Assembly: GCF_003464595.1 (NCBI RefSeq)
Contig: NZ_QRZF01000016.1
Span: 74,135 to 138,134 of the forward strand
Origin: Bacteroides intestinalis
GTDB lineage: Bacteria; Bacteroidota; Bacteroidia; Bacteroidales; Bacteroidaceae
Reading direction: 5' to 3'
Length of the DNA: 64,000 bases
The notes below the pieces were generated by a model. The model was not told where the DNA came from and ran no database searches. It saw nothing but the letters and a program-made list of their open reading frames with translations. Numbering within the stretch: position 1 is the stretch's first letter; each line of letters starts with the position of its first letter. Both the position numbers and the translations under genes were made by a program. Shown here piece after piece: positions 16,483-53,101 of the stretch.

Positions 16483-16556
16483 TAACGAGCCACAAGCTAC
16501 GGGCTACAAGTATCTGATTGTGCACCCCCTTGTAGTTCGTAGCTTGTAGCCTGTTA
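16483..16556. repeat. 7-bp-repeat hairpin element between tatA and tatC
   Basis: Left arm 16483-16510 has units like GCTACAA, right arm 16529-16556 has the complementary TTGTAGC units. The arms pair imperfectly over 28 bp around a loop containing TGATTGTGCACCCCC. It belongs to the element family described at 25066, 29783, 31477, 35853, 40450, 47676, 51838 and 53010. Confidence 0.85.
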
Positions 16557-16575
16557 CTCTTTGATCGTAACTTAT

Positions 16576-16797
16576 TTATTTTTTAGAAGCCGGCTCTTCT
16601 ATATCATCCTTTGCCTTGTTTATTTCTTCTTTCGCCTCATTCACACCGTCCTTGAAGCTCTTCACGCCTTTACCTAATCCCTTCATCAATTCGGGTATCT
16701 TCTTACCACCGAACAACAACAGGATTAGCAAAGCAATAATAACCCATTCGGAACCGCTGGGCAGAAAGCCTAATAAAAGTAAGTTTGTCATATTCAT
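16576..16797 (-). CDS. tatA: Sec-independent translocase protein TatA/TatE
   Basis: 73 residues: one N-terminal membrane helix ([22 protein letters not shown], split around the FGG hinge) followed by an amphipathic helix ([15 protein letters not shown]) and a charged tail. The F-G-hinge and the G-K-G-V pattern are diagnostic of TatA, which oligomerises to form the protein-conducting assembly with TatC. A second in-frame ATG two codons later is possible. A -7 box lies just upstream. Confidence 0.95.
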
Positions 16798-16815
16798 AGT
16801 TTTTTAAATTTGTTG

Positions 16816-16823
16816 CAAATATA
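16816..16823 (-). promoter_or_regulatory. -7 box for tatA-tatC-helicase
   Basis: The minus strand reads TATATTTG, an exact -7 box, about 20 bases before the tatA start. No TTTG at -33. It suggests that the tat unit can be transcribed apart from murF-alr, which ends about 70 bases upstream. Confidence 0.5.
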
Positions 16824-16891
16824 ATAGTTTCACTACAGATTACACGCTTTTACATGGATTAAAATGAAAAGAATAAAGGTAAAACCGAATA

Positions 16892-19420
16892 TCAGTCCTG
16901 ATAATAAACCCTCTTCACCCGTGTAGAAACGCTTGTCAATACTTCGTAAGGAATGGTTTCAAGTATATCGGAAAGCACCGTAATGGGCAGATGATCGCCA
17001 AATATCTCTACTGTATCCCCTTCTTTACATTCAATATCCGTAACGTCTATCATGCAGACATCCATGCAGATATTACCGACATAAGGTGCACGTTGCCCAT
17101 TCACCAGACAATATGCATGACCATTGCCTAAGTGACGGTTTAGTCCGTCGGCATATCCGATAGGCAGTGCAGCAATACGTGAATCACGTGTCAGATGTCC
17201 CTTGCGACTATATCCAACCGTATCTTCTTCGGGCACCTCCCGTATTTGCAGGATGGTAGTTTTCAGTGTACTTACATTATTTATAATAGTATTATCGATC
17301 GGACTGATACCATACAAACCGATGCCCAGACGTACCATATCGAACTGTGCTCCGGGGAAACGCTCAATACCTGCCGAGTTGCAGATGTGACGGAGTATTT
17401 TATGCGGAAATGCTGCTTGCAACTGCATAGAGGCAGCTTCAAACATTTCTATTTGTCCGCGCGTAAATGCATCAAACTGAGATGCATCGCTGCCTACAAG
17501 ATGAGAGAATACAGACCGTGCAATAACTGCATTCTGACTCTTCAACCGTTCTATAAGTCGTGGCATATCCTCGGGAGCAAAGCCCAGACGATGCATACCC
17601 GTATCCAGTTTTATATGAATAGGGAAGTTGGTAATGCCTTCTTTTTCCGCCTCCTTAATCAGTGCATCCAGCAAATGGAAGCTGTACACTTCCGGCTCCA
17701 GCTTATAGTCGAACATGGTCTTGAAGGCCGTCATCTCCGGATTCATAATGATAATGCTCGCCGTAATGCCTGCTTTGCGCAGTTCGGAACCTTCGTCGGC
17801 CACAGCCACAGCCAGATAATCGACATGGTGTTCCTGTAGCGTCTTGGCAATCTCATACGAACCTGCACCATACGCAGACGCTTTCACCATGCAGACCATC
17901 TTGGTTTCCGGCTTCAGTTTACTACGATAATAATTCAGATTGGCTATCATGGCTCCGAGATTCACTTCAAGAATCGTTTCGTGTACCTTCTTCTCCAGTT
18001 CTTCCGTCAAAGCATCAAAGCCAAACTGACGGGCACCTTTTATTAATATAATTTCATTTTCCAACCGTAGCTCACCACGGGAAATAGCACGCAACAATGC
18101 TTCCGTATTAGGATAGAAAGCCTTTTCAATATCAAAACGTGCAGCACACGAGGCAATCTCATTTCCAACACCGATGATGCGCTCAATGCCACGACTATTA
18201 ATCAACTGCGATACCTTCCGGTAAAGCGTCGGTGCATTCTGCCCCGTTTCCAGTATATCAGAAAGAATGAGTGTACGCTTCAACCCATTGCTTTGCGAGC
18301 GACGGTAAAGGAAATCGAGCGCAATATCCAATGAAGCGAGATCACTGTTATAACTATCATTAATCAATAAGCAACCGTTTTTGCCCTCCTTTACCTCCAG
18401 GCGCATAGCCACCGGTTCCAGTGTTGTCATGCGCTCCGTAATTTTTTCGGCGGGAAGCATCAGGTAAAGACAAGCAGCCAAACAATTCAACGAGTTTTCA
18501 ATAGAAGCATCATCAATGAAAGGTAGCATAAAAGTATTGTCCATTTCCAGGTAACGGTAAGAGATGACGGTACAATCTTCTTTCTTCTCCACCTTACTTA
18601 TAAACAGAGGACGCTCCATATCTCTCCGGCTCCATGCTATTTCACGGGCACTGAGCATGGACTTGGCCACACAATTGCTGATAAATTCATCATCACCATT
18701 ATAAATCACCACATCGCAGTTCTTAAACAGAGTCAGCTTCTCCATACATTTTTCTTGCAAAGAGAAGAAGTTTTCCTGATGAGCACCACCAATGTTAGTC
18801 AGTATGCCAATGGTTGGTTTGATAATATTCTGTAAGGCACGCATTTCCCCCATCTCCGAGATACCGGCTTCGAAGATAGCAAGCTCAGACTGTTCGTTCA
18901 TCTGCCAGACAGACAGAGGCACTCCGATCTGAGAATTATAACTGCGAGGCGAACGGACAATTACCCGTTCGGGACTAAGCAACTGATGAAGCCACTCTTT
19001 CACAATAGTCTTTCCATTGCTGCCTGTGATGCCAATCACAGGAATCTGGAATTGCTCACGATGTTGCTCCGCCAATTTCTGCAAAGCTTTCAGCGGATTA
19101 GCAACTACTAAAAAGTTGAGTTGGGGTATGAGACTTGACTGCGCATCATCACGTTGTATAGAATCATCTATAATCAATTGTCCATTTTCAATTGCCTTAT
19201 AAGTTTCTTTGCTTACCACAAAATTGCGAACGCCACGTGAATATAAATCAGATATATAGCGGGCACCGTCGTTGCGTTTGGTAGTTAAGGCAAAGAACAA
19301 AGTTTCTTCGGGGAAACTCAAGGAACGGCTATCGGTAAGTAACCAGTCTATAGTTGCCGGCGTGTCCCCCACACGTCGCGCACCAATGCGTTCGGCTATT
19401 GTTTCAATCGTATATGACAT
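16892..19420 (-). CDS. Fused MurF (UDP-MurNAc-tripeptide:D-Ala-D-Ala ligase) and alanine racemase
   Basis: 842 residues. Residues 1 to about 465 are a Mur ligase: ATP-binding GITGSNGKTIVKEW near 127, then IFEAGISEMGEM, NIGGAHQENF and NDSYNSDLAS. From about 480 to the end is a PLP-dependent alanine racemase: MVKASAYGAG near 509 with the Schiff-base Lys, HIKLDTGMHRLGF, RLGIGLYGI, and VGYSRKG near 736 with the catalytic Tyr. The fusion joins D-alanine production to the step that adds D-Ala-D-Ala to the peptidoglycan precursor and is common in Bacteroidota. Both active sites look intact. The start overlaps the GSCFA gene by 25 bases, so the genes are co-translated. Confidence 0.96.
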   Translation of the reverse strand: MSYTIETIAERIGARRVGDTPATIDWLLTDSRSLSFPEETLFFALTTKRNDGARYISDLYSRGVRNFVVSKETYKAIENGQLIIDDSIQRDDAQSSLIPQLNFLVVANPLKALQKLAEQHREQFQIPVIGITGSNGKTIVKEWLHQLLSPERVIVRSPRSYNSQIGVPLSVWQMNEQSELAIFEAGISEMGEMRALQNIIKPTIGILTNIGGAHQENFFSLQEKCMEKLTLFKNCDVVIYNGDDEFISNCVAKSMLSAREIAWSRRDMERPLFISKVEKKEDCTVISYRYLEMDNTFMLPFIDDASIENSLNCLAACLYLMLPAEKITERMTTLEPVAMRLEVKEGKNGCLLINDSYNSDLASLDIALDFLYRRSQSNGLKRTLILSDILETGQNAPTLYRKVSQLINSRGIERIIGVGNEIASCAARFDIEKAFYPNTEALLRAISRGELRLENEIILIKGARQFGFDALTEELEKKVHETILEVNLGAMIANLNYYRSKLKPETKMVCMVKASAYGAGSYEIAKTLQEHHVDYLAVAVADEGSELRKAGITASIIIMNPEMTAFKTMFDYKLEPEVYSFHLLDALIKEAEKEGITNFPIHIKLDTGMHRLGFAPEDMPRLIERLKSQNAVIARSVFSHLVGSDASQFDAFTRGQIEMFEAASMQLQAAFPHKILRHICNSAGIERFPGAQFDMVRLGIGLYGISPIDNTIINNVSTLKTTILQIREVPEEDTVGYSRKGHLTRDSRIAALPIGYADGLNRHLGNGHAYCLVNGQRAPYVGNICMDVCMIDVTDIECKEGDTVEIFGDHLPITVLSDILETIPYEVLTSVSTRVKRVYYQD

Positions 19421-20385
19421 ATTTCTTTCTCGTTTTGGAAATCTAAGTACGGGTATTTTTGGTTAAGTCGATCTATTTTTAACACAATTTGTCCTAAAAA
19501 ACGCTTATACTCCTCTGACTCCGGATGGAAAGGCTTATGAGATAGCGCTTTATTGATATTTTCACTTTCCTGCATAATCTCTAACGCATCTGCCGAGAAG
19601 CAAGTCTGCACAAACTTCTCCCATACGTAGCGTACCGCCTGGGGGGACGGATGCATCATATCGTCAGCATAAAAACGATAGTCGCGAAGCTCGTCGAGCA
19701 AGAGTTCGTAAGCCGGAAAATAAGAGACATGTTCGGGAAAAGAAGCCTGCAATTGGTCGATGGCAAGCAAAAGCGTGGCTTTGCTCAATTGATTGGCATG
19801 CATTCCATCGCGTATGTGCCGTATAGGGCTGACGGTAAGAATCACTTTCAACTTCGGGTTCCGGGCAATCAGACCGGAGAAAAGGGAAGTATAGTCGGAT
19901 ACAATCTCCTGCACACTGAGTCGGCGACGAATAAAGACAGATTCCGGCTGCTTGTGGCAGTTTGCAACAACATGCCCCGTAGTCTTCTGTTCGTACACCC
20001 AGGATGTACCAAAAGTCAACATCAGACAATCCAGTTGATGAACGCATTCGTGTGCCGCCAACAAGCGGGCATTGATGCGCTGCAAAGTTTCCTCCATTGA
20101 AGGTGAAGAAAAATCTCCATGATGCATGGGGCTATGCCAGCATTCGCGGAAGAAAAACAAATTTTCTTCCTTATATACCTTACCTGCCACCACCTCACGC
20201 AAGGCAGCCGAAATGGACAAGGGATTATAGAGAACACCAAAAGGATTTATATCCGGATGAAATTTAGCATCCGCGAGTAAGCTCCCCATGTTGGTAGCAA
20301 AACAAGACCCCATCAACAGGAGACTATCTGCCTGTACAAGAGGTGGCAAACCGGAAGGCAACTCAACGGGAGTAAAGAAATCCAT
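19396..20385 (-). CDS. GSCFA domain-containing protein
   Basis: 329 residues. The name-giving motif is LLMGSCFATNMG near residue 25, followed by NPFGVLYNPLS and LTFGTSWVYE, and a late HPSPQAVRYVWEKF. The fold is SGNH-esterase-like, with the GSC segment corresponding to block I and DDMMHPS to the Asp-His block, but no substrate is established for the family. There is no signal peptide, so it is cytoplasmic. It ends 25 bases inside murF-alr, a tight coupling that suggests a role linked to cell envelope building. Confidence 0.9.
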   Translation of the reverse strand: MDFFTPVELPSGLPPLVQADSLLLMGSCFATNMGSLLADAKFHPDINPFGVLYNPLSISAALREVVAGKVYKEENLFFFRECWHSPMHHGDFSSPSMEETLQRINARLLAAHECVHQLDCLMLTFGTSWVYEQKTTGHVVANCHKQPESVFIRRRLSVQEIVSDYTSLFSGLIARNPKLKVILTVSPIRHIRDGMHANQLSKATLLLAIDQLQASFPEHVSYFPAYELLLDELRDYRFYADDMMHPSPQAVRYVWEKFVQTCFSADALEIMQESENINKALSHKPFHPESEEYKRFLGQIVLKIDRLNQKYPYLDFQNEKEICHIRLKQ

Positions 20386-20405
20386 AGATTATGAAAATTA
20401 GTATT

Positions 20406-21128
20406 CTACATCATCATGTTCTTCCTGATCGAGAACTTCACAATTGCCATTGCCTGGATAGCTGCAAACGGCACATCCATCGGTTCATGATGCGGATTAT
20501 AGCTCACCAGCTTGATGCAACCGTCTATTTCCGAACGGTTCACATATTTCACCGCCAAATATTCGTCTCCATCGATATTGAACGAAATCAGGTACATCTC
20601 ACCATAAATGACATTGCTAAAGCTACTGATTTCTTTAAAGCCTACGATATCTCCTGATTTCAGAATAGGGTACATACTATCTCCACTGATATAGAGGGCG
20701 CCATCACACAAGGGAATGCTGGGAATCTGTATCTTACCTACTATATATTGACGTTTGTTGGCAAGCAGTGTTTTTAGATTGGCAGCAGCAGTGATGTCAT
20801 AAAGCGCTACGCTACGGTCGCCCACCGGATCGGGTGTTTTGGGATTGTGGATTATCTCTACTTCTCCCCTTGCGTACTCACTATTGCATAATTTTGCCTG
20901 ATGTACAGGACTTCCTTTTCCCAGCAATAACCAGTTGTAGTCTACGTCTTTCATTTTGCTCAACAACAACGGAAAGTCAGTACTGTTACGCGCAATCCAG
21001 TTGCTAAGTGTGGAACGCGAAACGCCCAGGTAAGCGGCCAGATCAGCATCAGTCTTAAAGTTCAGTACACGTTTGGCGCGCTTCACTATGTCCGCTACGC
21101 TAAATAAGGAATCTTTTTCTTTCTCCAT
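20406..21128 (-). CDS. S24/LexA-like repressor with N-terminal helix-turn-helix
   Basis: 240 residues from the chosen start (MEKEKDSLF). Residues about 8-65 form a CI-type helix-turn-helix (DADLAAYLGVSRSTLSNWIAR). The C-terminal half is an S24 peptidase-like domain with the nucleophile in ISGDSMYPIL and a candidate base Lys in LAVKYVNR, as in LexA and CI repressors that cleave themselves. An upstream in-frame ATG at 21179 is possible; its extra residues show no conserved look. There is a strong promoter at 21285-21254. It is transcribed toward GSCFA and murF-alr with a 20-base gap. No other phage genes are near, so it looks like a chromosomal regulator. Confidence 0.85.
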   Translation of the reverse strand: MEKEKDSLFSVADIVKRAKRVLNFKTDADLAAYLGVSRSTLSNWIARNSTDFPLLLSKMKDVDYNWLLLGKGSPVHQAKLCNSEYARGEVEIIHNPKTPDPVGDRSVALYDITAAANLKTLLANKRQYIVGKIQIPSIPLCDGALYISGDSMYPILKSGDIVGFKEISSFSNVIYGEMYLISFNIDGDEYLAVKYVNRSEIDGCIKLVSYNPHHEPMDVPFAAIQAMAIVKFSIRKNMMM

Positions 21129-21253
21129 TTGATTTGTGCTAATTAAGTTCCAATGCATTTCTTGTTCATAGATGCACACTTCTGCATTTCGTAAAACGCC
21201 TAAACTGAGGCTGATTGTTTTCTATACGAAAACCAAGCGATGCATTGCAGCAA

Positions 21254-21285: not shown

Positions 21286-21300
21286 CAAAAAGCAAAGATA

Positions 21301-21459
21301 ACCCATCCTCTAATCAAAGAATAGATAAGATGCGTTGATAAATCAATTCATAACCCATCCCATTAAGCACAATGATGTTTTAACAATTTGTCAAGTTTTA
21401 TCAATAGCAGTAAGACACTTTGCAACTTTTTGATTATCAACATGATATTCCGGATCGTA
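21301..21459. other. Gene-free stretch between the divergent repressor and dxs units
   Basis: AT-rich spacer with no reading frame of note and no recognised RNA. It precedes the 22-bp-period array. Confidence 0.4.
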
Positions 21460-21547
21460 TTCAGTATACGACTGAGCCCTATTCAGTATACGACTGAATG
21501 GCATTCAGTATACGACTGAATTAGGTTCAGTATGCTACTTTTCCTTA
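21460..21547. repeat. Four-unit palindromic array with 22-bp period
   Basis: TTCAG starts at 21460, 21482, 21504 and 21526, exactly 22 bp apart. The first three units carry TTCAGTATACGACTGA, an inverted repeat TTCAGT/ACTGAA with a 5-base centre; the fourth is degenerate. The array lies in the region between divergent transcription units, so it is not simply a terminator for converging genes. Confidence 0.9.
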
Positions 21548-21659
21548 AACATTTGCTATTTGTAAATAATATGTAATGTTATTCTGTTCTTGTTTTAGTT
21601 CATTACTTTTCCGTTTTAAATTAACTACAAGCAATAAGCGCCTTTCGGAAAATAACGCA

Positions 21660-21693
21660 GCCACTTGTAGCTTGTAACCCGTAGCTCGCAACT
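21660..21693. repeat. Degenerate 7-bp repeat (CTTGTAGC type)
   Basis: Units TTGTAGC, TTGTAAC, CCGTAGC and TCGCAAC follow each other with a 7-bp period. They resemble the right arm of the tatA/tatC hairpin at 16529. A matching left arm (ACTACAAGC near 21624) is only partly preserved. Confidence 0.55.
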
Positions 21694-21806: not shown

Positions 21807-21830
21807 CAGTTTGTAATCCTCAGAACAGAG

Positions 21831-23735: not shown

Positions 23736-25072
23736 AAATTATTATTGCCGGTGCCGGCGCAGTAGGCACACACTTGGCAAAATTGTTGTCCCGCGAAAAG
23801 CAGGACATCATATTGATGGACGACAATGAGGAAAGGTTGAGCACACTCAGTTCCAACTTTGACTTGATGACGGTCACGGCTTCACCTACTTCCATTCAAG
23901 GGTTGAAAGAAGTGGGGGCTAAAGAGGCAGATCTCTTTATAGCCGTCACTCCCGACGAGAGCCGTAACATGACTGCATGTATGTTGGCTACCAACCTCGG
24001 TGCTAAAAAGACTGTTGCCCGCATTGATAATTACGAATACCTTCTGCCAAAAAATAAGGAGTTCTTCAAGAAGCTGGGTGTCGATTCACTGATTTACCCG
24101 GAAATGCTTGCAGCAAAAGAAATCGTATCCTCCATACGTATGAGTTGGGTACGCCAATGGTGGGAGTTTTGTGGCGGGTCTTTGATACTGATCGGTACCA
24201 AAATGCGTGAGAAAGCGGAAATACTGGATATTCCTCTCCACCAACTCGCCGGGACGGATAAACCCTATCATGTAGTAGCCATCAAACGCGGCAACGAGAC
24301 ACTTATTCCGCGTGGTGACGATGTAATTAAACTACATGATATTGTTTATTTCACCACCACCCGTAAATATGTACCCTATATACGCAAGATAGCCGGTAAG
24401 GAAGATTATGCCGATGTACGCAACGTAATGATCATGGGTGGAAGCCGCATTGCCGTACGAACCGCACAATATGTACCCGACTATATGCAGGTAAAGATCA
24501 TAGACAACGATCTGAACCGTTGCAACCGCCTGACGGAGATTCTCGATGATAAAGTCATGATTATCAATGGTGATGGTCGTGATATGGACTTACTGATTGA
24601 AGAAGGTCTGAAGAATACGGAAGCTTTCGTAGCACTGACGGACAACTCGGAAACGAATATTCTCTCCTGCCTTGCAGCCAAACGTATGGGCGTCAGCAAA
24701 ACAGTGGCAGAAGTAGAAAATATAGATTATATAGGCATGGCAGAAAGCCTCGATATCGGTACAGTGATCAACAAGAAGATGATCACCGCCAGCCACATTT
24801 ATCAAATGATGCTGGATGCTGATGTCAGCAATGTGAAATGTCTTACTTTTGCCAATGCCGATGTTGCGGAATTCACCGTGAAGGCCGATTCTAAAATCAC
24901 CAAACATCAAGTTAAAGACCTCGGTTTACCAAAGGGAGCTACCATCGGCGGATTAATCCGCCAAGGTGAAGGTGTGGTAGTAACCGGTAATACCCAGATA
25001 ATACCGGGCGACCACGTAGTAGTGTTCTGCCTGAATATGATGATTAAAAAGATTGAGAAATTCTTTAATTAA
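23732..25072 (+). CDS. trkA: Trk potassium uptake regulatory protein TrkA
   Basis: 446 residues with two RCK units. Each has a Rossmann NAD-binding domain ([17 protein letters not shown] at residue 3, and [15 protein letters not shown] near 233) followed by a TrkA-C domain. TrkA binds NAD(H) and nucleotides on the cytoplasmic face and gates TrkH. The start overlaps dxs by 4 bases and trkH lies downstream, making a dxs-trkA-trkH operon. The stop codon sits at the edge of a 7-bp-repeat hairpin. Confidence 0.95.
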
Positions 25073-25178
25073 TTATGAATGATAAATTATGAATGATGAA
25101 TTAGCTGCGCCACACGCTTTGCTACAAAGTCCGTTCATAATTCATAATTCATAATCTATAATTCATAATTCATAATTT
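25066..25178. repeat. 7-bp-repeat hairpin element between trkA and trkH
   Basis: Left arm 25070-25102 is made of AATTATG/AATGATG-like units, right arm 25134-25178 of ATAATTC units repeated with a 7-bp period. The core between them is CTGCGCCACACGCTTTGC. The arms pair as a long AT-rich hairpin. The trkA stop lies in the left arm and the trkH start comes 7 bases after the right arm. Confidence 0.88.
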
Positions 25179-29773: not shown

Positions 29774-29782
29774 TTAATGATG

Positions 29783-29862
29783 AACGATTAGTGATTAGTG
29801 ATGAGCGAACTACGCTGTCACATCGCAAGATACTAATCACTGATCACTAACAACTAATAACT
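29783..29862. repeat. 7-bp-repeat hairpin element between nuoCD and nuoH
   Basis: Left arm units GATTAGT repeat with a 7-bp period from 29785; the right arm has the complementary AATCACT-type units. The core is CTACGCTGTCACATCGC, which shares TACGCT with the elements at 51838 and 53010. It begins about 10 bases after the nuoCD stop. Confidence 0.85.
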
Positions 29863-30946: not shown

Positions 30947-31001
30947 CCGGCGTAGCGCCGGAGCAAAGTTTCCCTTCGGGTAAATTAAATATAAAGAGAT
31001 A

Positions 31002-31478
31002 ATGAAAGATAAGAACGAAACATACAGTTATTTAGGCGGATTGATGCATGGCATCGGTTCTTTGCTAACAGGTATGAAAACTACCATGACTGTTTTTTGC
31101 CGCCGGAAAGTAACGGAACAATATCCGGAAAACCGTGCGACACTGGAAATGTTCGACCGTTTTCGCGGAACGCTGACCATGCCCCACAATGAGCGGAACG
31201 AACATCACTGTATAGCATGTGGACTATGTCAGATAGCATGCCCCAATGACACTATCAAAGTAACCAGTGAAATGATAGAGACTGAGGACGGCAAGAAAAA
31301 GAAGATTTTGGCGAAGTATGAATACGATCTCGGTTCATGCATGTTTTGCCAACTTTGCGTTACAGCTTGTCCGCACGATGCAATTACGTTTGCTACAGAC
31401 TTTGAACATGCAGTATTCGACCGCACAAAGCTGGTGAAGACGCTTAATCATCCGGGCAGTCACGTAATAAAAAAATGA
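31002..31478 (+). CDS. nuoI: Complex I iron-sulphur subunit I
   Basis: 158 residues. Two 4Fe-4S motifs are complete: CIACGLCQIACPND and CMFCQLCVTACPHD. They hold clusters N6a and N6b, linking the electron input side to N2. Because nuoE, nuoF and nuoG are absent, NuoI is the likely docking point for the electron donor, probably ferredoxin or a flavodoxin (inference). The stop lies at the edge of a hairpin element. Confidence 0.96.
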   Translation: MKDKNETYSYLGGLMHGIGSLLTGMKTTMTVFCRRKVTEQYPENRATLEMFDRFRGTLTMPHNERNEHHCIACGLCQIACPNDTIKVTSEMIETEDGKKKKILAKYEYDLGSCMFCQLCVTACPHDAITFATDFEHAVFDRTKLVKTLNHPGSHVIKK

Positions 31479-31545
31479 TTAACGATTAGTGATAAGTGAT
31501 TAGTGCCATGCGGCATATACCAATCACTTATCAATAAACACTAAA
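31477..31545. repeat. 7-bp-repeat hairpin element between nuoI and nuoJ
   Basis: Left arm units GATTAAC, GATTAGT, GATAAGT and GATTAGT have a 7-bp period; the right arm is partly complementary. The core GCCATGCGGCATATACC shares CATGCGGCA with the element at 40450. The left arm starts in the nuoI stop. Confidence 0.85.
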
Positions 31546-31557
31546 ACATTAAATCAA

Positions 31558-34330: not shown

Positions 34331-34368
34331 AAATGTTAATCGTAATTCGTAAATAGTAAAACGTAATA
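34331..34368. repeat. One-armed 7-bp repeat between nuoL and nuoM
   Basis: Units like TAATCGT, AATTCGT, AAATAGT and AAAACGT follow with a 7-bp period directly after the nuoL stop. No second arm or core is present, so it may be a remnant or a half element of the hairpin family. Confidence 0.6.
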
Positions 34369-34373: not shown

Positions 34374-35855
34374 ATGAACATATTAAGTATTTTTGTTCTC
34401 ATCCCTCTGTTGATGTTGCTTGGTCTCTGGCTAAGTCGTAACATCAAGCAGATACGCACGGTGATGGTCATAGGTGCATCAGCATTGGTGCTGGCTGCCG
34501 TAGGCCTGACCATTGCTTACCTGCAAGCCCGTGCCGCCGGAGACACTGCCGAAATGCTGTTCCGTGCAGATGTACCTTGGTATCCGGCACTTAATATACA
34601 TTACTCCGTGGGAGTAGACGGCATTTCAGTAGCCATGTTGCTGCTTTCTGCCATCATTGTCTTCACCGGTACTTTCGCCTCCTGGCGTTTGCAACCGCTG
34701 ACAAAAGAGTATTTCCTCTGGTTCACCCTGCTTTCCCTGGGCGTGTTCGGCTTCTTCATTTCTACAGACTTGTTCACTATGTTCATGTTCTATGAGGTAG
34801 CGCTCATTCCTATGTACCTGCTTATCGGTGTATGGGGCAGTGGACGAAAGGAATATTCTGCCATGAAGCTGACATTGATGTTGATGGGTGGTTCTGCATT
34901 CTTGCTGATTGGTATTCTGGGTATCTACTTCGGTTCCGGTGCCACCAGTATGAACTTGCTGGAGATTGCACAACTGCACAATATTCCAATTGAACAACAA
35001 CGCATCTGGTTCCCGCTCACCTTCCTCGGTTTCGGTGTACTCGGTGCATTATTCCCGTTCCATACATGGAGCCCCGACGGTCATGCCTCTGCGCCTACGG
35101 CTGTAAGTATGCTCCATGCAGGTGTGTTGATGAAACTTGGAGGTTATGGCTGCTTCCGTATCGCCATGTATCTGATGCCCGAAGCTGCCCAGGAACTTGG
35201 ATGGATCTTCCTGATCCTGACTGGTATATCCGTAGTTTACGGTGCTTTCTCTGCTTGTGTACAGACGGACTTGAAGTATATCAACGCATACTCTTCCGTA
35301 TCTCACTGCGGTCTCGTACTCTTTGCCATCCTGATGATGAACCAGACTGCTTGTACCGGTGCTGTCCTGCAAATGCTCAGCCACGGATTGATGACTGCCC
35401 TGTTCTTTGCCCTTATCGGTATGATATACGGCCGCACTCATACCCGTGACGTACGCGAGCTCTCCGGTTTGATGAAGATTATGCCTTTCCTGGCTGTCTG
35501 CTATGTGATTGCCGGACTTGCTAACCTCGGACTTCCGGGACTCAGCGGTTTCGTTGCCGAAATGACCATCTTCAACGGTGCATTCCAGCATGTGGATGTC
35601 TTCCACCGTACGTGGACGATTATTGCCTGCACCAGTATCGTAATCACTGCAGTCTATATCCTTAGACTCGTTGGTAAGATTCTCTATGGCACTTGTACTA
35701 ACAAGCATCACCTGACATTAACCGACGCTACCTGGGATGAACGCACCGCCGTTATCATACTCATCGTTTGCGTTGCAGGTCTCGGTCTTGCTCCGTTATG
35801 GATCAGCAATATGATTGGAGAAAGTGTATTGCCTTTGATAACTTCGTTCAATTAA
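34374..35855 (+). CDS. nuoM: Complex I antiporter-like subunit M
   Basis: 493 residues, about 14 membrane segments. MFMFYEVALIPMYLLIGVWG carries the conserved glutamate and FPFHTWSPDGHASAPTAVSML the discontinuous helix. A later NLGLPGLSGFVAEM is typical of NuoM. Proton pumping subunit. Confidence 0.96.
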   Translation: MNILSIFVLIPLLMLLGLWLSRNIKQIRTVMVIGASALVLAAVGLTIAYLQARAAGDTAEMLFRADVPWYPALNIHYSVGVDGISVAMLLLSAIIVFTGTFASWRLQPLTKEYFLWFTLLSLGVFGFFISTDLFTMFMFYEVALIPMYLLIGVWGSGRKEYSAMKLTLMLMGGSAFLLIGILGIYFGSGATSMNLLEIAQLHNIPIEQQRIWFPLTFLGFGVLGALFPFHTWSPDGHASAPTAVSMLHAGVLMKLGGYGCFRIAMYLMPEAAQELGWIFLILTGISVVYGAFSACVQTDLKYINAYSSVSHCGLVLFAILMMNQTACTGAVLQMLSHGLMTALFFALIGMIYGRTHTRDVRELSGLMKIMPFLAVCYVIAGLANLGLPGLSGFVAEMTIFNGAFQHVDVFHRTWTIIACTSIVITAVYILRLVGKILYGTCTNKHHLTLTDATWDERTAVIILIVCVAGLGLAPLWISNMIGESVLPLITSFN

Positions 35856-35965
35856 AGAATGAAAGAATTAAAGAATGAAAGACCGTATAACATCAAAAGC
35901 CTAAGCCCATGCCGCAAAAGCATGATGCTGAATGCCTTTCATTCTTTCATTATTAATTATTAATT
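35853..35965. repeat. 8-bp-repeat hairpin element between nuoM and nuoN
   Basis: Left arm units AAAGAATG/AAAGAATT repeat with an 8-bp period and begin in the nuoM stop; the right arm has CTTTCATT units. The core contains GCCCATGCCGCAAAAGCATG, whose complement resembles the core of the element at 40450. The arms can form a long stem. Confidence 0.87.
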
Positions 35966-37414: not shown

Positions 37415-37441
37415 CGGACATTAATTCTTATTTCACTAAAG

Positions 37442-37482
37442 TGTGTACCGAGAGAATCAAATCTCCGGTACACATTTTTTTT
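37442..37482 (+). terminator. Intrinsic terminator of the nuo operon
   Basis: TGTGTACC at 37442-37449 pairs with GGTACACA at 37467-37474, extended by GAGA/TCTC pairs, and is followed by eight T residues. It separates nuoN from the convergent histidine kinase gene. Confidence 0.92.
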
Positions 37483-37507
37483 ATCGTTAGTATTAGGATA
37501 ACAATGA

Positions 37508-40334: not shown

Positions 40335-40449
40335 ATGCTTACTTATTAATTTCTGTCCTATTCCTACTAACAAAAAAAAGAAAGTTTAAAACCAGCAGCT
40401 ACATGAGTCTAATAAACGTTTGATCATTTTTGTAGGGTTTTGAGGGAAA

Positions 40450-40539
40450 GTTGACGAGTTAACAAGTTGACAAGGGGACAAGGTTCCATGCGGCACAGAA
40501 GCATTGCGCAGCCCCTTGTTCCCTTGTCAACTCGTCAAC
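40450..40539. repeat. 8-bp-repeat hairpin element upstream of the TonB receptor
   Basis: Left arm units GTTGACGA, GTTAACAA and GTTGACAA have an 8-bp period, and the right arm gives the complement (CCTTGTCAACTCGTCAAC). The core is CCATGCGGCACAGAAGC. It is the best paired element of the family, lying between divergently transcribed genes rather than at a stop codon. Confidence 0.9.
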
Positions 40540-40626
40540 TGGTTTCCTTCCTTTCTATACAGTAATAAAGCAAATATCGGTACACTCCCCCTAACATCAC
40601 CTCACCTTGTTATCAAATTGTAACCT

Positions 40627-45219: not shown

Positions 45220-45326
45220 TTCTCACTATAGCAAGAATATATTCTCACCGCATTGAGAATATATTCTCATCGTATTGAGTATTCTTTCTCATCGCAATGA
45301 GAATACATTCTCAACATAGTGAGAAA
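45220..45326. repeat. Five-unit palindromic array with 22-bp period
   Basis: TTCTCA starts at 45220, 45242, 45264, 45286 and 45308, exactly 22 bp apart. Each unit is an inverted repeat of the form TTCTCA-6 bases-TGAGAA, for example TTCTCACCGCATTGAGAA. The array lies between two convergent genes, after the terminator at 45153. Confidence 0.93.
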
Positions 45327-46640: not shown

Positions 46641-46680
46641 CTACTTGTCACTTTTGTAGCTCGTCTCTCGTCACTTGTTC
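46641..46680. repeat. Degenerate 7-bp repeat after the DUF4435 gene
   Basis: CTACTTGTCACTTTTGTAGC followed by TCGTCTCTCGTCACTTG shows rough 7-bp units of the CTTGTAGC/TCGTCAC type. It runs into the stop codon of the DUF4435 gene. Only one arm is visible. Confidence 0.5.
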
Positions 46681-47666: not shown

Positions 47667-47675
47667 GGGTATACA

Positions 47676-47762
47676 ATGAAAAAATTAAAGAATTAAAGAG
47701 TGAAAGGGCGGCGCGGTACGAGTATATAATTTTTCATTCTTTCATTCTTTCATTATTAATTC
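47676..47762. repeat. 8-bp-repeat hairpin element between the AAA ATPase and DUF4435 genes
   Basis: Left arm units AAAGAATT and AAAGAGTG, right arm units TTTCATTC, both with an 8-bp period; core GGCGGCGCGGTACGAG. The right arm extends into the ATPase gene and encodes its last residues (NNERMKE). Confidence 0.87.
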
Positions 47763-48576
47763 CCACGGATATATCGCTCACTTCCGTCACTGCATCCAGC
47801 CAGCCTTCCATGATGACGGCGGGAGAATGGGTAGTGAGTATCAGTTGCACATTGGGATTCAGTTCACGTATCATGCTGATAAGTTTCTGCTGCCACTCGA
47901 TGTGCAGGGAGGCCTCGGGCTCGTCCATAAAGAGGACACAATGGGCGTTATCGCGCACCAGCACGGTAAGCAGAATAATCAGCATCTGTTTTTCACCGGA
48001 AGAGAGTTTATAGGGCAACAGGCGTTCACCGTCCTGATAGAAGATGATTTCATTGCTGCGGCGATCTATGCTTTTGCGGGTATAACTGAACAACTGGTCC
48101 ATCAGGTCCTGAAACTTTCGCTTGGGCAAAGAGAGGGAAGCAGCTTGCGAACGCTGTTCCTCATCGCCTGAAAGAAGCTCGATCATCTTGTTGCCAATGT
48201 TAACCTGATAGTCAAGATAACGGCGTTGCAAAAGATAGAGTTGCCAGTCGAGTTCGGATTTGACGTTCGGATCAGCCATGCGGGCGGTAAAGTCGCCCAT
48301 TATCAAAGGACGGTCATAGCTGCGGATTACGTCATAAGGAATATACGTGGCATCCGGACGATCGAACGTAATACGTACTCCTTCTATCTCACCATTCTTT
48401 ATCTCACCCGAAAGCTCTTCCAGGTAGTGGACGGAACGGTTAAGGATCGTAGTCTTCCCTACTCCATTGATACCGGAAAGGATATTCACATCGGGACGCA
48501 AATCCCAGGCTATGTTGAAGCGATCCCACAACCTGTGTATCTCGATACGTTGGATATAATTGGCTTGTTCTTCCAT
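47734..48576 (-). CDS. AAA/ABC-type ATPase paired with the DUF4435 protein
   Basis: 280 residues, cytoplasmic. Walker A is SGINGVGKTTILN (near 32-44), the ABC signature is KLSSGEKQMLIIL, Walker B is VLFMDEPEAS, and the switch histidine is in LILTTHSPAVIMEG. This is the ATPase fold of OLD-like and AriA-like proteins, without the long coiled coil of SMC proteins. It is shorter than typical AriA. It would regulate or recruit the DUF4435 protein encoded next. A -7 box lies 22 bases upstream. Its C-terminus is formed by a repeat element. Confidence 0.88.
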   Translation of the reverse strand: MEEQANYIQRIEIHRLWDRFNIAWDLRPDVNILSGINGVGKTTILNRSVHYLEELSGEIKNGEIEGVRITFDRPDATYIPYDVIRSYDRPLIMGDFTARMADPNVKSELDWQLYLLQRRYLDYQVNIGNKMIELLSGDEEQRSQAASLSLPKRKFQDLMDQLFSYTRKSIDRRSNEIIFYQDGERLLPYKLSSGEKQMLIILLTVLVRDNAHCVLFMDEPEASLHIEWQQKLISMIRELNPNVQLILTTHSPAVIMEGWLDAVTEVSDISVGINNERMKE

Positions 48577-48597
48577 AGTTTTTGCTTTTAATCAAAG

Positions 48598-48605
48598 CAA
48601 ATATA
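48598..48605 (-). promoter_or_regulatory. -7 box of the AAA-DUF4435 operon
   Basis: The minus strand reads TATATTTG, an exact -7 box, 22 bases before the ATPase start. No TTTG at -33. Confidence 0.55.
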
Positions 48606-48644
48606 CGTGATTATCTTTTATTTCCACGCCCGGAAATAGAAAAA

Positions 48645-50729
48645 TCACTCCTCAGCCGGCAAATCAATGCAGAAACATGCACCATCCTGATAAGATGTAT
48701 CGAGATAAATGGAACCACCCAGGCGGGTGACAATGAGGCGACAGGAATAAAGTCCTAATCCGGTGCCGGGAACGAATTCGTCCAATTTGGTAAAACGGTC
48801 GAATATATATTCGGCCTTGTCAGCCGGAACGCCGATCCCCGTATCGCTCACCATAATACGAACTTTTCCTTCGGTACGCACCAGACTCATGCGGATAGTA
48901 CCGACAGTTGTGAACTTTGCAGCATTACCCAGGAGGTGTTCTACGACACGTTGTAAGTATCGGGCATTCGTTTTCACAAGACACTCATCCGTTCCGGATT
49001 CAAATAGCCAAGCGATTTCGGAGTTTCTAGTTCTTCCCTGGCATATATCCAGAAGTCCGGCACAAACCGGCAATATATCCACCTGCTCCATGGGGAACAA
49101 TTCCAACGAACTGCTTAAGTCCGATACTTGCAGAATATCCTCGAACAATTCGGTCAATTGATTGGAGTTCTTTTCAATGATGACCGGAAAATCTTTTTTA
49201 TCTTCCTGAGCCAAATCTTCATTCAACAACAAAGTACTGAAACCGCAGATAGCATTGAGCGGAGTACGTATCTCGTGACACATGGACTGTAGAAATTCCG
49301 TCTTCATACGGTCACTCGCCTTGGCTCGTTCACTTTCCTCAGCCACTTTCTCATTCGACAGAATCAACGCCTGCTTTGTTGCTTTCAACCGTTTCGTCAG
49401 CACGTACTGATAGAGGCTCCAGATCAAGAAAATCAGAAGCAGGACTATGAGTACAGCAAGAGCGATACGATGATAACGCGCTTGAAGTTCAGCCTGTTCT
49501 ATCTTCAGTTTATCCACTTCAAACAACGACCGCATCTCAGCCAACTGTTTATTCGTCTCTTCCACATGATTATCTTCCATCAGGTTGGTGTACTCCCAAA
49601 AAGCATCAAACCCTTCTTTGTAATGCTGTTTCCATTGGGTAACCAGGTTTATCTTCTTTGCCAGTAACTCTGTCCGCCTGTTCGTGTCGGCAGAATCCGT
49701 TTGTTCCAGCAGTTCATCAATGGTCTGCATGGCAAGGTCATACTGTGCGGTATAAAAATAGTAACGGAAAGCGGAGGGCAAAAGCCACTCTTTATTCTCT
49801 TTCGGTGTCTTGGACTGATAATATTCCTCCATACGGGAATAAATATCATCAGCCCTTTTCCTGCCTATGATATCTCCGAAATAAAGAAGCTCGCTATAAA
49901 CCCCCATACGCAAAGCTTCACGACTACGGGTACGGATATAAGTACGCCTCTTGTAGAAAGGCAATTCAAACTGATTGTCATACAGTTGTTCCGTTTGTTC
50001 CAAGGCCTCCACAGCTTTAGCAGCTTCCTCGGCCTTTCCTTCCGCACGATATATGAACTCAATGCGGGTCAGATAATACCAATCGAACTTATAACTAACC
50101 TCGAATGGCAGACCGCTAACCAACTGGTGAATATTCTTCAAATGAACAATGCGGTCTTCTGAATTGGCAACAGATGGTGAAAAGTAACTAATGCATTCCA
50201 TTGCCGAACACAGTATCATCTCCCACTGCACTTCCTGCGACTTATCCGAGAGATTTACCTTGTGACGTTTATACCGTGAGATTTCTTCATTGGCTTCATC
50301 AGGTTTCTCGGCCTCATCCATCTTGCAAACAGAAGGAAAAGCCTTGAGCCATGCCATATAAAAGTCCTTATAAGGCCCTTCCAGACATTGTTCTCCTATC
50401 CGCTGATAATAGTGCAAAGAATCCGGATCATCTTTATAACTACGACAAAGAATGTCCAGTGTTTCAAAAATATAGATCTGATCTTTCAACTGAATGGCCA
50501 GTTGCAGCGATTCGTTGATATAGGTACGCTTACTTGTCACATCGTCGGACAAGTCATACAAGTCGACATACAGTTCCATTCTCTGCTGTTTATCGATGGA
50601 ATTGTCTTGTAGTGTTTCCAGCAAGTGTTTTCTGGTCTGATCTACATCAACCTCCTGAGCTGCATAAATTTGCATACAAAAGAGAATAAACCAGCATGTT
50701 GTTACAATTTTAATCCAGTAGTTTATCAT
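48645..50729 (-). CDS. Membrane sensor histidine kinase with periplasmic helical-repeat sensor
   Basis: 694 residues from the chosen start. Signal peptide (WFILFCMQIYAAQ), a periplasmic all-helical region of about 390 residues that looks like TPR-type repeats, one membrane helix (IALAVLIVLLLIFLIWSLYQ, near 421-443), then HisKA with [15 protein letters not shown] near 485 and HATPase (NAAKFT, DTGIGVP, GTGLGLYS). No receiver or DNA-binding domain is attached and no response regulator is adjacent. A promoter with both boxes lies between the chosen ATG and an upstream in-frame ATG at 50768, which rules out the latter. Confidence 0.92.
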   Translation of the reverse strand: MINYWIKIVTTCWFILFCMQIYAAQEVDVDQTRKHLLETLQDNSIDKQQRMELYVDLYDLSDDVTSKRTYINESLQLAIQLKDQIYIFETLDILCRSYKDDPDSLHYYQRIGEQCLEGPYKDFYMAWLKAFPSVCKMDEAEKPDEANEEISRYKRHKVNLSDKSQEVQWEMILCSAMECISYFSPSVANSEDRIVHLKNIHQLVSGLPFEVSYKFDWYYLTRIEFIYRAEGKAEEAAKAVEALEQTEQLYDNQFELPFYKRRTYIRTRSREALRMGVYSELLYFGDIIGRKRADDIYSRMEEYYQSKTPKENKEWLLPSAFRYYFYTAQYDLAMQTIDELLEQTDSADTNRRTELLAKKINLVTQWKQHYKEGFDAFWEYTNLMEDNHVEETNKQLAEMRSLFEVDKLKIEQAELQARYHRIALAVLIVLLLIFLIWSLYQYVLTKRLKATKQALILSNEKVAEESERAKASDRMKTEFLQSMCHEIRTPLNAICGFSTLLLNEDLAQEDKKDFPVIIEKNSNQLTELFEDILQVSDLSSSLELFPMEQVDILPVCAGLLDICQGRTRNSEIAWLFESGTDECLVKTNARYLQRVVEHLLGNAAKFTTVGTIRMSLVRTEGKVRIMVSDTGIGVPADKAEYIFDRFTKLDEFVPGTGLGLYSCRLIVTRLGGSIYLDTSYQDGACFCIDLPAEE

Positions 50730-50765
50730 ATTTCGGACAATTTGAAGAACTTGTCTCTTTTGTTG

Positions 50766-50797
50766 CAAATATAGAATAATTTGTAGGTTAGAGCAAA
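50766..50797 (-). promoter_or_regulatory. Promoter of the membrane histidine kinase
   Basis: The minus strand has TTTG (50797-50794), 20 bases, then TATATTTG (50773-50766): the full Bacteroides promoter at the standard spacing. Confidence 0.78.
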
Positions 50798-50922
50798 TTT
50801 ATTCGTATTTAACTGTAAGTAAGAAGTCTTTCAATGATTTTGCCGTAAATATATTAAAGTAGAAAAGTCTTTTTAGTTTCAAAAAATAATCGTTCTTTTG
50901 CAGCCTCAAAAACAAAAAGAGT

Positions 50923-51837
50923 ATGAATAAGAATGTACAAGGGCATGTATTCGCCCTGACTGCCAATATTTTATGGGGCCTTATGGCTCCTATCGGCAAA
51001 TCCGCACTTATGGAGTTTTCAGCTTTATCGGTGACCACATTTCGCATGGTGGGTGCGGCAGCTTGTTTCTGGCTGTTGTCCGCATTTTGTAAGTATGAGC
51101 ATGTGGACCACCGCGATATGCTGAAGATATTCTTTGCTTCGCTCTTTGCACTGGTATTCAATCAAGGGGTATATATTTTCGGTCTTTCAATGACTTCACC
51201 CATTGATGCCTCCATTGTGACAACCACGCTTCCCATCGTGACCATGATTATTGCCGCTATCTATCTGAAAGAGCCTATCACGAATCTGAAAGTACTGGGT
51301 ATCTTTGTGGGAGCTATGGGAGCACTGACACTTATTTTAAGTAGTCAGACCGCAGGCAGTGGCAACGGTAGCATTATCGGAGATTTACTTTGTCTGGTAG
51401 CGCAAATCAGTTTCTCTATTTATCTGACTGTATTCAAGGGGTTATCACAGAAATATTCTCCCATCACACTGAATAAGTGGATGTTTATATACGCATCCAT
51501 GTGTTATATTCCATTCTCCTATCAAGATGTAGCGGGTATTCAGTGGGCAGAGATTTCCACTGCAGCATACGTACAAGTAGGTTATGTGGTAATAGGCGGT
51601 AGTTTCCTTGCTTATATATTCATTATGACTGCGCAAAGATTACTGCGCCCCACAGTGGTAAGTATGTACAATTATATGCAGCCCATCGTAGCTTCTATCG
51701 CTGCCATTATCATGGGTTTGGGAGTATTCGGCTGGGAAAAGGGAATAGCTATTGCCTTAGTGTTCCTCGGCGTATATATTGTGACGAAGAGTAAGTCGAA
51801 GGCAGACTTTGAAAAGGAAGGGAAAATTTGTGATTAA
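50923..51837 (+). CDS. EamA/DMT-family permease
   Basis: 304 residues with ten predicted membrane helices in two homologous halves (FALTANILWGLMAPIGKSAL begins half 1; IIGDLLCLVAQISFSIYLT begins half 2). The family exports or exchanges metabolites such as amino acids; the substrate cannot be told from sequence. The end of the gene adjoins a hairpin element. Confidence 0.9.
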   Translation: MNKNVQGHVFALTANILWGLMAPIGKSALMEFSALSVTTFRMVGAAACFWLLSAFCKYEHVDHRDMLKIFFASLFALVFNQGVYIFGLSMTSPIDASIVTTTLPIVTMIIAAIYLKEPITNLKVLGIFVGAMGALTLILSSQTAGSGNGSIIGDLLCLVAQISFSIYLTVFKGLSQKYSPITLNKWMFIYASMCYIPFSYQDVAGIQWAEISTAAYVQVGYVVIGGSFLAYIFIMTAQRLLRPTVVSMYNYMQPIVASIAAIIMGLGVFGWEKGIAIALVFLGVYIVTKSKSKADFEKEGKICD

Positions 51838-51916
51838 CGGTTAATGATTAGTGATTAGCAGGCTACGCTATTATACCGTATGGGCTAATCACTAATCACT
51901 CACCACTAATCACTCT
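51838..51916. repeat. 7-bp-repeat hairpin element between the EamA gene and meaB
   Basis: Left arm GATTAGT units, right arm AATCACT units, 7-bp period; core GCTACGCTATTATACCGTATGG. It starts in the EamA stop and its right arm encodes the last residues and stop of meaB. Confidence 0.88.
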
Positions 51917-53009
51917 TTCTCATTTCCCCGAAATACGTATCCAGCAAACTTTTTGCAGCAACAAATGAAGTGAGTTTACCTTGCAATACTTGCTGTTCTT
52001 TATCACCGAGCATAGCTTCTATAACCGGATTATGATAGAAACTATCGCGCAGGCGCTCATTGATACTTTCGTACATCCAGTATTTACTTTGTTCATTACG
52101 GCGGTAATCAAAGTAGCCGTTGTCCTTCACAAAAGCGACGTAATCGTAAATCATATCCCATATTTCTTTCACTCCCAAGTTATAGAAACCGGAATAGGTC
52201 ATTACCTGTGGCGTCCATCCTGATTCAGGAGCAGGGAACAAATGCAGAGCATTACGAAACTGATTTGCAGCCAGTTTTGCACGATCCAGATTATCACCGT
52301 CGGCTTTGTTGATAACAATACCGTCGGCCATCTCCATGATGCCGCGTTTGATGCCTTGCAATTCATCGCCCGTACCGGCTAACTGAATAAGCAAAAAGAA
52401 ATCTACCATAGAATGTACAGCTGTTTCACTCTGTCCTACACCTACTGTCTCTACAAATATCTTATCGAAACCGGCAGCTTCACAAAGAATAATCGTCTCA
52501 CGCGTTTTACGGGCTACTCCGCCCAAAGACCCTGCCGATGGACTGGGACGAATAAAAGATGCAGGATGAACGGAAAGTTGCTCCATACGTGTCTTATCAC
52601 CCAGAATACTGCCTTTACTACGCTCACTACTGGGGTCGATGGCAAGTACCGCCAACTTGCCTGCATATTTCTCCAATACATGCAGACCGAAAACATCAAT
52701 GGAAGTACTTTTACCTGCTCCCGGTACACCACTGATACCTACACGGATAGAATTTCCGGAATAAGGCAGGCATTTCTCAATGACCTCTTGTGCCACTGCC
52801 TGGTGTTCAACTTTCACGCTTTCCACCAAAGTCACTGCCTGGCTTAAAATGGTTACATCACCTTTTACAATACCTTCTACAAACTCCGCCACGGAAAGCT
52901 GACGCTTTCTGGGTTTAGGACGACGATAGGGATTAACAGATGAAGGTTGTTCAATGCCTGCATTGACAACCAGGCCTTTATAGGCTTCATTGTTTTCAGG
53001 ATGTTCCAT
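51906..53009 (-). CDS. meaB: Methylmalonyl-CoA mutase-associated GTPase MeaB
   Basis: 367 residues. G-domain motifs: VGISGVPGAGKSTSID (Walker A), LAIDPSSERSKGSILGDKTRM, ETVGVGQSE, and VINKADGDN (NKxD). MeaB loads and protects the adenosylcobalamin of methylmalonyl-CoA mutase, which Bacteroides uses in its succinate-propionate pathway. The mutase genes are not in the window. Its start lies next to a second hairpin element and its stop is inside another. Confidence 0.95.
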   Translation of the reverse strand: MEHPENNEAYKGLVVNAGIEQPSSVNPYRRPKPRKRQLSVAEFVEGIVKGDVTILSQAVTLVESVKVEHQAVAQEVIEKCLPYSGNSIRVGISGVPGAGKSTSIDVFGLHVLEKYAGKLAVLAIDPSSERSKGSILGDKTRMEQLSVHPASFIRPSPSAGSLGGVARKTRETIILCEAAGFDKIFVETVGVGQSETAVHSMVDFFLLIQLAGTGDELQGIKRGIMEMADGIVINKADGDNLDRAKLAANQFRNALHLFPAPESGWTPQVMTYSGFYNLGVKEIWDMIYDYVAFVKDNGYFDYRRNEQSKYWMYESINERLRDSFYHNPVIEAMLGDKEQQVLQGKLTSFVAAKSLLDTYFGEMRKSD

Positions 53010-53101
53010 GATAAGATTTATGATTTATAATTTATGATTTACGATAGGATTTATGATTTATAGGGCGATAGAATAGCGTATTATAAATCATAAATCTTAT
53101 C
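53010..53101. repeat. 7-bp-repeat hairpin element between meaB and the DUF1573 gene
   Basis: Left arm GATTTAT units (7-bp period), right arm complementary ATAAATC units; the complement of the core reads TACGCTATTCTATCGCCC, close to the core at 51838. It fills the meaB leader, and its right end overlaps the stop of the DUF1573 gene. Confidence 0.88.

Follow-up and report, generated by a model that had tools for sequence, protein, structure and literature searches.

A 64,000-nucleotide stretch of Bacteroides intestinalis DNA (contig NZ_QRZF01000016.1, positions 74,135 to 138,134; here called the window) carries hairpins near gene ends, several of which sit between genes of the trk and nuo clusters. 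These hairpins are one element family of Bacteroides, and this family is larger than a preliminary description of the window had proposed. The element consists of about five heptads (35 nt; sometimes 8-mers), a 23-nt tip, CCATGCGGCATNATAGCGCAGCC, and then a complementary arm. Some gut Bacteroides hold dozens of such hairpins per genome. The tip is common to them, and the arms may differ wholly between copies.

Hairpins of the window

All nine two-armed hairpins of the preliminary description were present in the window. They were scored with a covariance model (R1) that holds no window sequence but contains elements from the sites orthologous to 16483, 29783, 31477 and 51838. The model found eight places at E≤0.0053 (16483, 21660, 25066, 29783, 31477, 40450, 47676 and 51838); 53010 was reached only at E 0.14–0.2, and 35853 was missed.

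The best-preserved element is 51838 (51826–51914, minus strand; 63.3 bits, E 4.9e-12). It has GATTAGT arms and the tip CCATACGGTATAATAGCGTAGCC on the minus strand, with two convergent genes around it. GATTAGT arms are also found in the nuoCD/nuoH hairpin 29783 (29776–29861, minus strand; 49.9 bits, E 6.9e-9), which has a reversed tip, TCTTGCGATGTGACAGCGTAGTT, and in the nuoI/nuoJ hairpin 31477 (31477–31547, plus strand; 36.5 bits), which has a half tip, CCATGCGGCAT. The first arm unit of the latter supplies the stop codon of nuoI, and NuoI is shorter than in three sister species. The trkA/trkH hairpin 25066 (25071–25177, minus strand; 46.5 bits, E 4.5e-8) is built of AATTATG/AATGATA 7-mers around a reversed and eroded tip; the TrkA protein of the window is 97–98% identical to those of B. 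stercorirosoris, B. oleiciplenus, B. cellulosilyticus and B. timonensis. Three hairpins have 8-mer arms. Hairpin 40450 (40449–40540, plus strand; 40.1 bits, E 1.5e-6) uses GTTGACAA and has the tip CCATGCGGCA...TGCGCAGCC with a longer spacer. Units of AATGAAAG form both 47676 (47675–47758; 25.0 bits, E 0.0053) and the nuoM/nuoN hairpin 35853 (35850–35965), whose enlarged middle (35883–35935) holds CCATGCCGCA. Hairpin 53010 (53009–53102; only 18–19 bits) has GATTTAT arms and an eroded tip, GGGCGATAGAATAGCGTA, and adjoins the stop of the minus-strand gene 53100–54170. In hairpin 16483 (16481–16558; 25.8 bits, E 0.0034), GCTACAA-type 7-mer arms (16481–16510 and 16529–16558) enclose a middle without a recognisable tip; the ortholog in B. 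timonensis and B. cellulosilyticus has a good one.

Three further sites had been described as one-armed remnants. By sequence, this holds for 34331–34366 (plus strand; CGTAATT-like heptads in the nuoL/nuoM gap) and for 46641–46675 (GCTACAA-like). The third, 21660 (21615–21691, plus strand; 31.1 bits, E 1.9e-4), is instead a degenerate element with a recognisable tip, CCTTTCGGAAAATAACGCAGCC, one base short, and two arms, the left short and the right longer and of GCTACAA type.

Such hairpins exceed chance expectation. An inverted-repeat scan of the window returned 7 hits compared with 0 in a Markov resample, and 5 of the 7 are elements described here. In 400 kb of B. oleiciplenus the same scan returned 65, compared with 2 and 5 in two resamples. 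The arms had been described as tandem 7-mers or 8-mers, and these periods were recovered when hairpins were chosen first and the lag was asked afterwards: among 235 inverted repeats from loci L001–L101 and the window, orthologues included, the best self-match lag (z>3.5) was 7 in 69, 8 in 9, 14 in 3, 11 in 6 and 9 in 1. Across the whole window Rfam gave no match above its gathering score at the elements (7 loci had 12 sub-threshold hits, of which 11 were to microRNA families).

A constant tip and covarying arms

The shared core proposed earlier is real and corresponds to the tip, but it is often decayed in the window copies. When an ungapped tip profile was compared with 200 shuffled loops for each hairpin, it was matched or beaten 0 times at 29783, 40450, 51838 and 21660, and 4, 6, 7 and 11 times at 53010, 35853, 31477 and 47676. 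There was no signal at 25066 and 16483, where 102 and 131 of the 200 shuffles were as good. Among 71 distinct loops of periodic hairpins, some of them orthologous, 8-mers such as GCGCAGCC were common to 19; the maximum for shuffled loops was 4.

With up to 3 mismatches allowed, the tip occurs 24 times in B. oleiciplenus and the reversed pattern 0 times. A draw of the genus gave the tip in 25 of 119 genomes, B. oleiciplenus included, at up to 30 copies, with 0 reversed matches in all 119. In wider draws, 150 other genomes of the family gave one genome with a single match and one with a reversed match, and 295 other genomes of the phylum gave three with one match and one with a reversed match. 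Of the genomes reached through named loci, 22 of 41 have the tip. Counts were 30 in both B. nordii and Bacteroides sp. C.10_2, 19 in B. timonensis, 18 in B. salyersiae, 10 in B. cellulosilyticus, 4 in P. vulgatus, and 0 in B. finegoldii and both B. fragilis genomes. Genomes G210, G198 and G211 have 30, 24 and 22 copies; these and B. nordii have 0 reversed matches.

A covariance model extended this range. In the family draw it gave rows in 31 of 121 genomes, B. oleiciplenus included, and it did so in 24 of 25 genomes reached via named loci (129 in B. nordii, 6 and 5 in B. fragilis, 0 in one genome). These counts are rows and not elements, as a palindrome often gives one row per strand and scoring was limited to 37 or 150 candidates per genome. 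Seven loci from other genomes of the family had lag-7 arms. Counting complements, five of them begin the tip with CCATGCGG and have a longer or altered middle; one has CCTTGCG and one CCATCCGG. A heptad left arm followed by CCATGCGG was found at 74 places, redundant loci counted, and all had a partner arm (72 by script, 2 by eye).

To describe the arms, we collected 98 elements by tip match, a redundant set. Of these, 64 have non-redundant arms and were used for arm pairing, lag and the link between tip variant and arm; one of them, L102, a chance match of another genome, was removed later, which left 63 for the alignment and the figures after it. The arms covary, as the preliminary description had supposed. 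Pairing was 0.76 in the 64 elements compared with 0.49 when partners were swapped, and the maximum of 200 shuffles was 0.536. In the 63-row alignment, from which the structure used here was also derived, 89.3% of cells were paired (64.7% shuffled, 31–42% slid) and the covariation score was 0.661 (0.226 shuffled, at most 0.166 slid). All 17 arm pairs showed two-sided compensatory changes. For each of the 8 single elements tried, the predicted fold surpassed shuffles, by 5.5 to 11.2 standard deviations.

The best lag was 7 in 54 of the 64 elements, 8 in 7, 14 in 2 and 9 in 1, and the modal number of units per arm was five (23 of 63 left arms and 28 of 63 right arms). Shared 6-mers divide the arms into 11 families around one tip. 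Several families occur inside one genome, as in B. oleiciplenus and G211, sometimes around an identical tip. The families have a common phase around the tip. Two alignment columns spaced by 7 have an A-U pair in 57 and 60 of the 63 rows, a result that the alignment favours; unaligned and weighted by family, A stands at 0.80, 0.81 and 0.68 at −5, −12 and −19 from the tip. The 5′ arm is purine-rich in 54 of the 63. In a set not chosen by tip this was again so (66 vs 10 of 79, with 3 ties), compared with 69 vs 48 of 128 for non-periodic hairpins. Together, tip and arms support a single element type with a common tip, as first proposed.

Arm type and tip variant are weakly linked (Mantel r −0.10, permutation p 0.0015). 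Of 13 pairs with identical tips 8 have unrelated arms, and in B. oleiciplenus the tip CTATGCAGCATGATAGCGCAGCT carries two arm families (L124 and L125). Over longer times the arms therefore change faster than the tips.

We considered whether the units serve mainly as a stop-codon device, as 7 and 8 are not multiples of 3 and many units hold TGA, TAA or TAG. This was rejected. Read inward, the 5′ arm stops 2.24 of 3 frames compared with 2.03 for shuffled arms, and all three frames in 35 of 63 elements; the consensus units GCTACAA and TGTGCCAA have no stop in the 5′ arm.

Gene ends and turnover among sister species

The elements end at stop codons. Gene context was entered for 87 of the 98 elements, a redundant set; 15 lie inside an open frame and were excluded from distances. 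The other 72 lie between genes, 31 convergent, 33 tandem and 8 divergent. The median distance from tip to stop is 32 nt (10–90% range 20–44), so that the arm ends near the stop codon, and 87 of 95 stop boundaries fall 15–60 nt from the tip. The median distance from tip to start is 61 nt, with a wide range. Between tandem genes the tip is seen in both orientations (19 vs 14).

We compared 31 intergenic regions among the window and four sister species, although not every species could be aligned at each site. In eleven of these regions one or more of the five species has a periodic hairpin. Both occupied and unoccupied sites, as anticipated, are found among sisters. One orthologous site may hold nothing, the same hairpin, a hairpin with unrelated arms, or an identical but inverted tip. 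The nuoCD-nuoH gap has four arm types among the five species. At 51838, three species have GATTAGT arms and two GCTACAA arms; the GCTACAA elements of B. timonensis and B. cellulosilyticus share the identical tip CCTTGCGGCATGATAGCGCAGCT on opposite strands, which is an inversion between inverted arms. Arms at the same site were compared in 28 pairs by a script that overlooked two clear elements, one of B. timonensis at 51838 and one of the window at 47667: the Jaccard index was below 0.08 in 11 pairs, at least 0.2 in 14 and between these in 3. With one third of the intergenic regions occupied in one species or another, independent events at a single site are not improbable.

One B. oleiciplenus site has an outer palindrome, AAATGATAATTTA/TAAATTATCATTT, that is kept in four relatives. 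Its interior varies: B. oleiciplenus has a GATTAGT element there, two genomes have a GCTACAA element, and elsewhere it is filled by a GAAGAAT element or a different repeat. These differing interiors show exchange of the inner hairpin. B. cellulosilyticus has a bare GCTACAA element at this site, and B. timonensis is unreadable there. The same outer palindrome was also seen without heptads (L117:2568). As a general rule, insertion into palindromes was rejected, being clear only for the AAATGATAATTTA subfamily; pairing beyond the heptads was 6.19 vs 5.66 shuffled (maximum of 300 shuffles 6.06), which in part reflects unresolved heptads.

Near-identical copies are dispersed. Five copies in B. oleiciplenus (L091/L104, L109, L111, L117 and L118) are near-identical over about 130 bases with different flanks, the right end of L117 being changed. 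In DNA searches with two element loci, each of two relatives yielded more than 80 matching rows, of which many were partial or fell on both strands. The dispersed copies indicate that units are copied, in line with the earlier suggestion that the element may be mobile. The same description had the arms re-made in place by slippage, and this is only partly supported: whole-unit replacement fits several sites better. Arms at the same site are mostly either similar or unrelated, and copies disperse whole, so most switches are explained more simply if a different unit took the place of the old one. Mixed arms, such as that of L107 with its two unit types, favour some partial re-making, as does the weak association of arm type with tip variant, and in-place rewriting may act alongside replacement.

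Other repeats and hairpins were noticed, some of them at these sites. In the window, a terminator-like hairpin stands between convergent genes at 37415–37507; B. timonensis and B. cellulosilyticus have a heptad element instead. At sites where sisters carry heptad hairpins or remnants, the 31479 gap of B. stercorirosoris and B. timonensis and the nuoL-nuoM gap of L002 hold GC-rich sequence with inverted CCTCCTCC/GGAGGAGG-like blocks. After nuoH, a small repeat, CCGGCGTAGCGCCGG..CCCTTCGGG (window 30947–31001), is doubled in B. stercorirosoris and absent from B. oleiciplenus and B. cellulosilyticus; a similar repeat fills an outer palindrome elsewhere (L217). A second hairpin family has 11-mer arms of TCCGTATCAAC-like units, at 5404–5489 of the window and at 140879, 322327 and 384899 of B. 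oleiciplenus C1, with the centre CTCTATAG at the last two and CCTATAG at 140879. Tandem 22-mer arrays with palindromic content (e.g. ATTCAGTATACGACTGAATCCC) lie at window 7762–7856, 21459–21533 and 45220–45325, and a similar-looking array is found in B. cellulosilyticus at the gap orthologous to 21180. The Rfam small RNA BTnc231, at window 11955–12158, is unrelated to the elements.

Proposed mobility, and comparison with known repeats

We favour, by a little over even chances, a family of short non-autonomous mobile hairpins that are recognised by the tip and whose arms stay paired while the heptads turn over. A trans-acting factor would recognise the tip and copy the unit. Copies would land in the few bases behind stop codons, where they do least harm and selection tolerates them, and would sometimes replace an existing hairpin or enter it. 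Slippage, together with repair of one arm from the other, would keep the pairing and homogenise the heptads. New arm families could arise and spread in this way; the tip would be held by its recogniser, and the arms would persist since a long stem is needed. We also offer, tentatively, a bolder form of this proposal, in which the 23-nt tip itself is the heritable unit. The element would then be propagated via its hairpin tip instead of its ends; the arms would be disposable, and rebuilding in steps of 7 or 8 nt would bring them to about five units. Different copies of one element type could then have unrelated ends, and the element could take over the loop of another palindrome.

Several results weigh against this proposal. 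Tip conservation is partly built in, because the 98 elements were picked by tip match. No transposase or other partner was found. The Y1/RAYT (REP-associated tyrosine transposase, named for repetitive extragenic palindromic elements) domain PF01797 occurs in 9 of 38 genomes; of the eight genomes with at least 18 tips, it is present in G002 and G004 and absent from G243, G210, G198, G211, G227 and G274. The longest direct repeat shared by the flanks was 3.90 compared with 4.00 shuffled, and arm ends are fuzzy. No clean pair of empty and filled sites with exact joints was found, and about 2.5 Mb held no gene-bearing version, which was sought only as a left arm plus CCATGCGG with a partner within 6 kb. 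Tipless hairpins occur (window 16483; B. oleiciplenus 145826), so heptad hairpins can exist without the tip. Single sequences are predicted to fold the tip as TGCG/CGCA below a CCA/GCC internal loop. This stem is broken at the second pair in 8 and at the fourth in 10 of the 64 elements, uncompensated. RNAalifold instead pairs GC with GC further inside the tip; among the 64 elements neither pairing had two-sided changes. At 51838 the window has TACG/CGTA in this stem, a single double change that is suggestive. The tip's own fold is therefore a prediction to which covariation gives no support, and the tip may equally be read as double-stranded DNA. An autonomous version was also looked for among matches at the contig ends of G192: the GATAATTTA end was present in 2 of 20 stretches (18 from G192 and 2 from G198), which were scanned for that end only.

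Selected RNA structures could also account for hairpins behind stops. These would protect mRNA ends or set operon expression; need for the hairpin would conserve the sites, and the arm sequence would be free as long as it pairs. The abutment on stop codons, the excess of convergent over divergent placements and the strong predicted folds agree with this, as does the nuoCD-nuoH gap, where 13 of 51 readable loci have a periodic hairpin and 63 of 78 pairs have unrelated arms. So does site 37415, where an element in two sisters takes the place of the terminator-like hairpin of the window and B. stercorirosoris. However, many relatives have a short, hairpin-free gap at the same sites (20 bp or less between trkA and trkH in 28 of the 54 loci that could be read, and between nuoCD and nuoH in 6 of 51), the tip is found in both orientations to the genes, and the dispersed near-identical copies are left unexplained. 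The elements are not canonical terminators either: arm GC content is 0.32, and 5 of 126 strand ends have at least six T among the 8 nt that follow the 3′ arm. An intrinsic terminator, with its GC-rich stem and T run, was accordingly rejected. We judge this reading to be unlikely.

It is quite unlikely, in our view, that no dedicated machinery acts at all, with slippage making the heptad arrays, quasi-palindrome repair the inverted pairs, and the tip a widespread hitchhiking motif. The tip is too specific for this (no reversed match in the 119 genomes of the genus draw) and is flanked by paired arms at the 74 places above, and the five-unit mode and common phase of the arms also oppose it. Tipless hairpins and mixed-unit arms are what such a process would leave, and heptad repeats are known in unrelated bacteria (PMC4679880, PMC4692102). 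On plasmids of Bernardetia and Pseudoalteromonas, too, there are matches to the GATTAGT-type arm that lack the tip. These stretches are 35–36 bases long and occur at 34 and 22 places in the records NZ_CP147018.1 and NZ_CP032091.1. The same heptad, as GTGATTA, is cited for Helicobacter pylori (PMC4692102). As only one-arm stretches match, in these two plasmid records, a plasmid origin was rejected, and so was a viral origin, since the exact inner tip (21 positions, one N) had 0 matches in viral contigs.

A miniature inverted-repeat transposable element (MITE) of an insertion sequence (IS), with arms as fast-evolving terminal inverted repeats, would fit the size, AT-richness, intergenic site, copy number and the one subfamily with constant outer ends, AAATGATAATTTA/TAAATTATCATTT, but is very unlikely: ends differ wholly between arm families, the flanks, next to fuzzy arm ends, show no excess of direct repeats of the kind that target-site duplication would leave, and that outer palindrome looks like a separate or nested hairpin, because it is found without heptads and its interiors differ in relatives.

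Tip-directed mobility, if true, would mean that DNA has a new means of spreading. Should slippage and repair be the only processes at work, the hairpins document in nature how 7-nt repeats, which are reported to be over-represented in many bacteria (PMC4692102), originate and are homogenised. Because they lie inside the nuo and trk clusters, can supply a stop codon and vary between sisters, the elements are ready for comparative and expression tests. A search of titles and abstract openings in the open-licence literature, with subscription papers and preprints outside it, found no description of the element.

In known extragenic repeats the part that stays constant is the ends (MITEs) or the foot (REPs), whereas in the Bacteroides elements the centre is constant and the ends are variable. 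REPs in general lie near stop codons. Like REPs with RAYT, the elements are extragenic imperfect palindromes in many copies; REPs differ in having a constant GT(A/G)G head, a GC-rich palindrome and a Y1 transposase, according to the part of that report cited here (PMC2817692). No constant GT(A/G)G foot was found, as flanks of 42–60 nt differ between Bacteroides copies, and alignment A1 has no invariant column outside the tip, only A20, A27, T57 and T64 being nearly invariant. The REP reading fails on this head and on the absence of Y1 from six of the eight tip-rich genomes. A classical MITE was rejected because constant terminal inverted repeats are lacking (11 arm families; a constant outer end in one subfamily only). 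The BrickBuilt MITEs of Porphyromonas gingivalis are likewise intergenic, from Bacteroidota, and contain tandem repeats; unlike the Bacteroides hairpins, they are described in the cited part as 23-nt direct repeats between leader and tail, with IS-like terminal inverted repeats (PMC4596501).

As heptameric simple sequence repeats, the elements are tandem 7-mers and intergenic, but B. oleiciplenus and G211 each hold several unit families. TAACTGA heptamers of Beggiatoaceae, Cyanobacteria and some Bacteroidetes also form intergenic 7-mer arrays; in the cited part of that report they are a single unit in direct repeats (one indirect set), mostly right before start codons (MacGregor 2015, PMC4679880). 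The GGGAATC heptamers of Xanthomonas share several features. Inverted (convergent) pairs are given for 70 and 75 cases, many units lie on the sense strand less than 50 bp from stop codons, some of them between convergent ORFs, and the single or paired type is usually retained between the two species (Rehm et al. 2015, PMC4692102). They differ in having one unit type, read as a G-quadruplex, with no common tip mentioned in the cited part, compared with 11 arm families around one tip in Bacteroides. The arrangement of constant tip and variable arms matches none of the kinds of bacterial repeat compared here.

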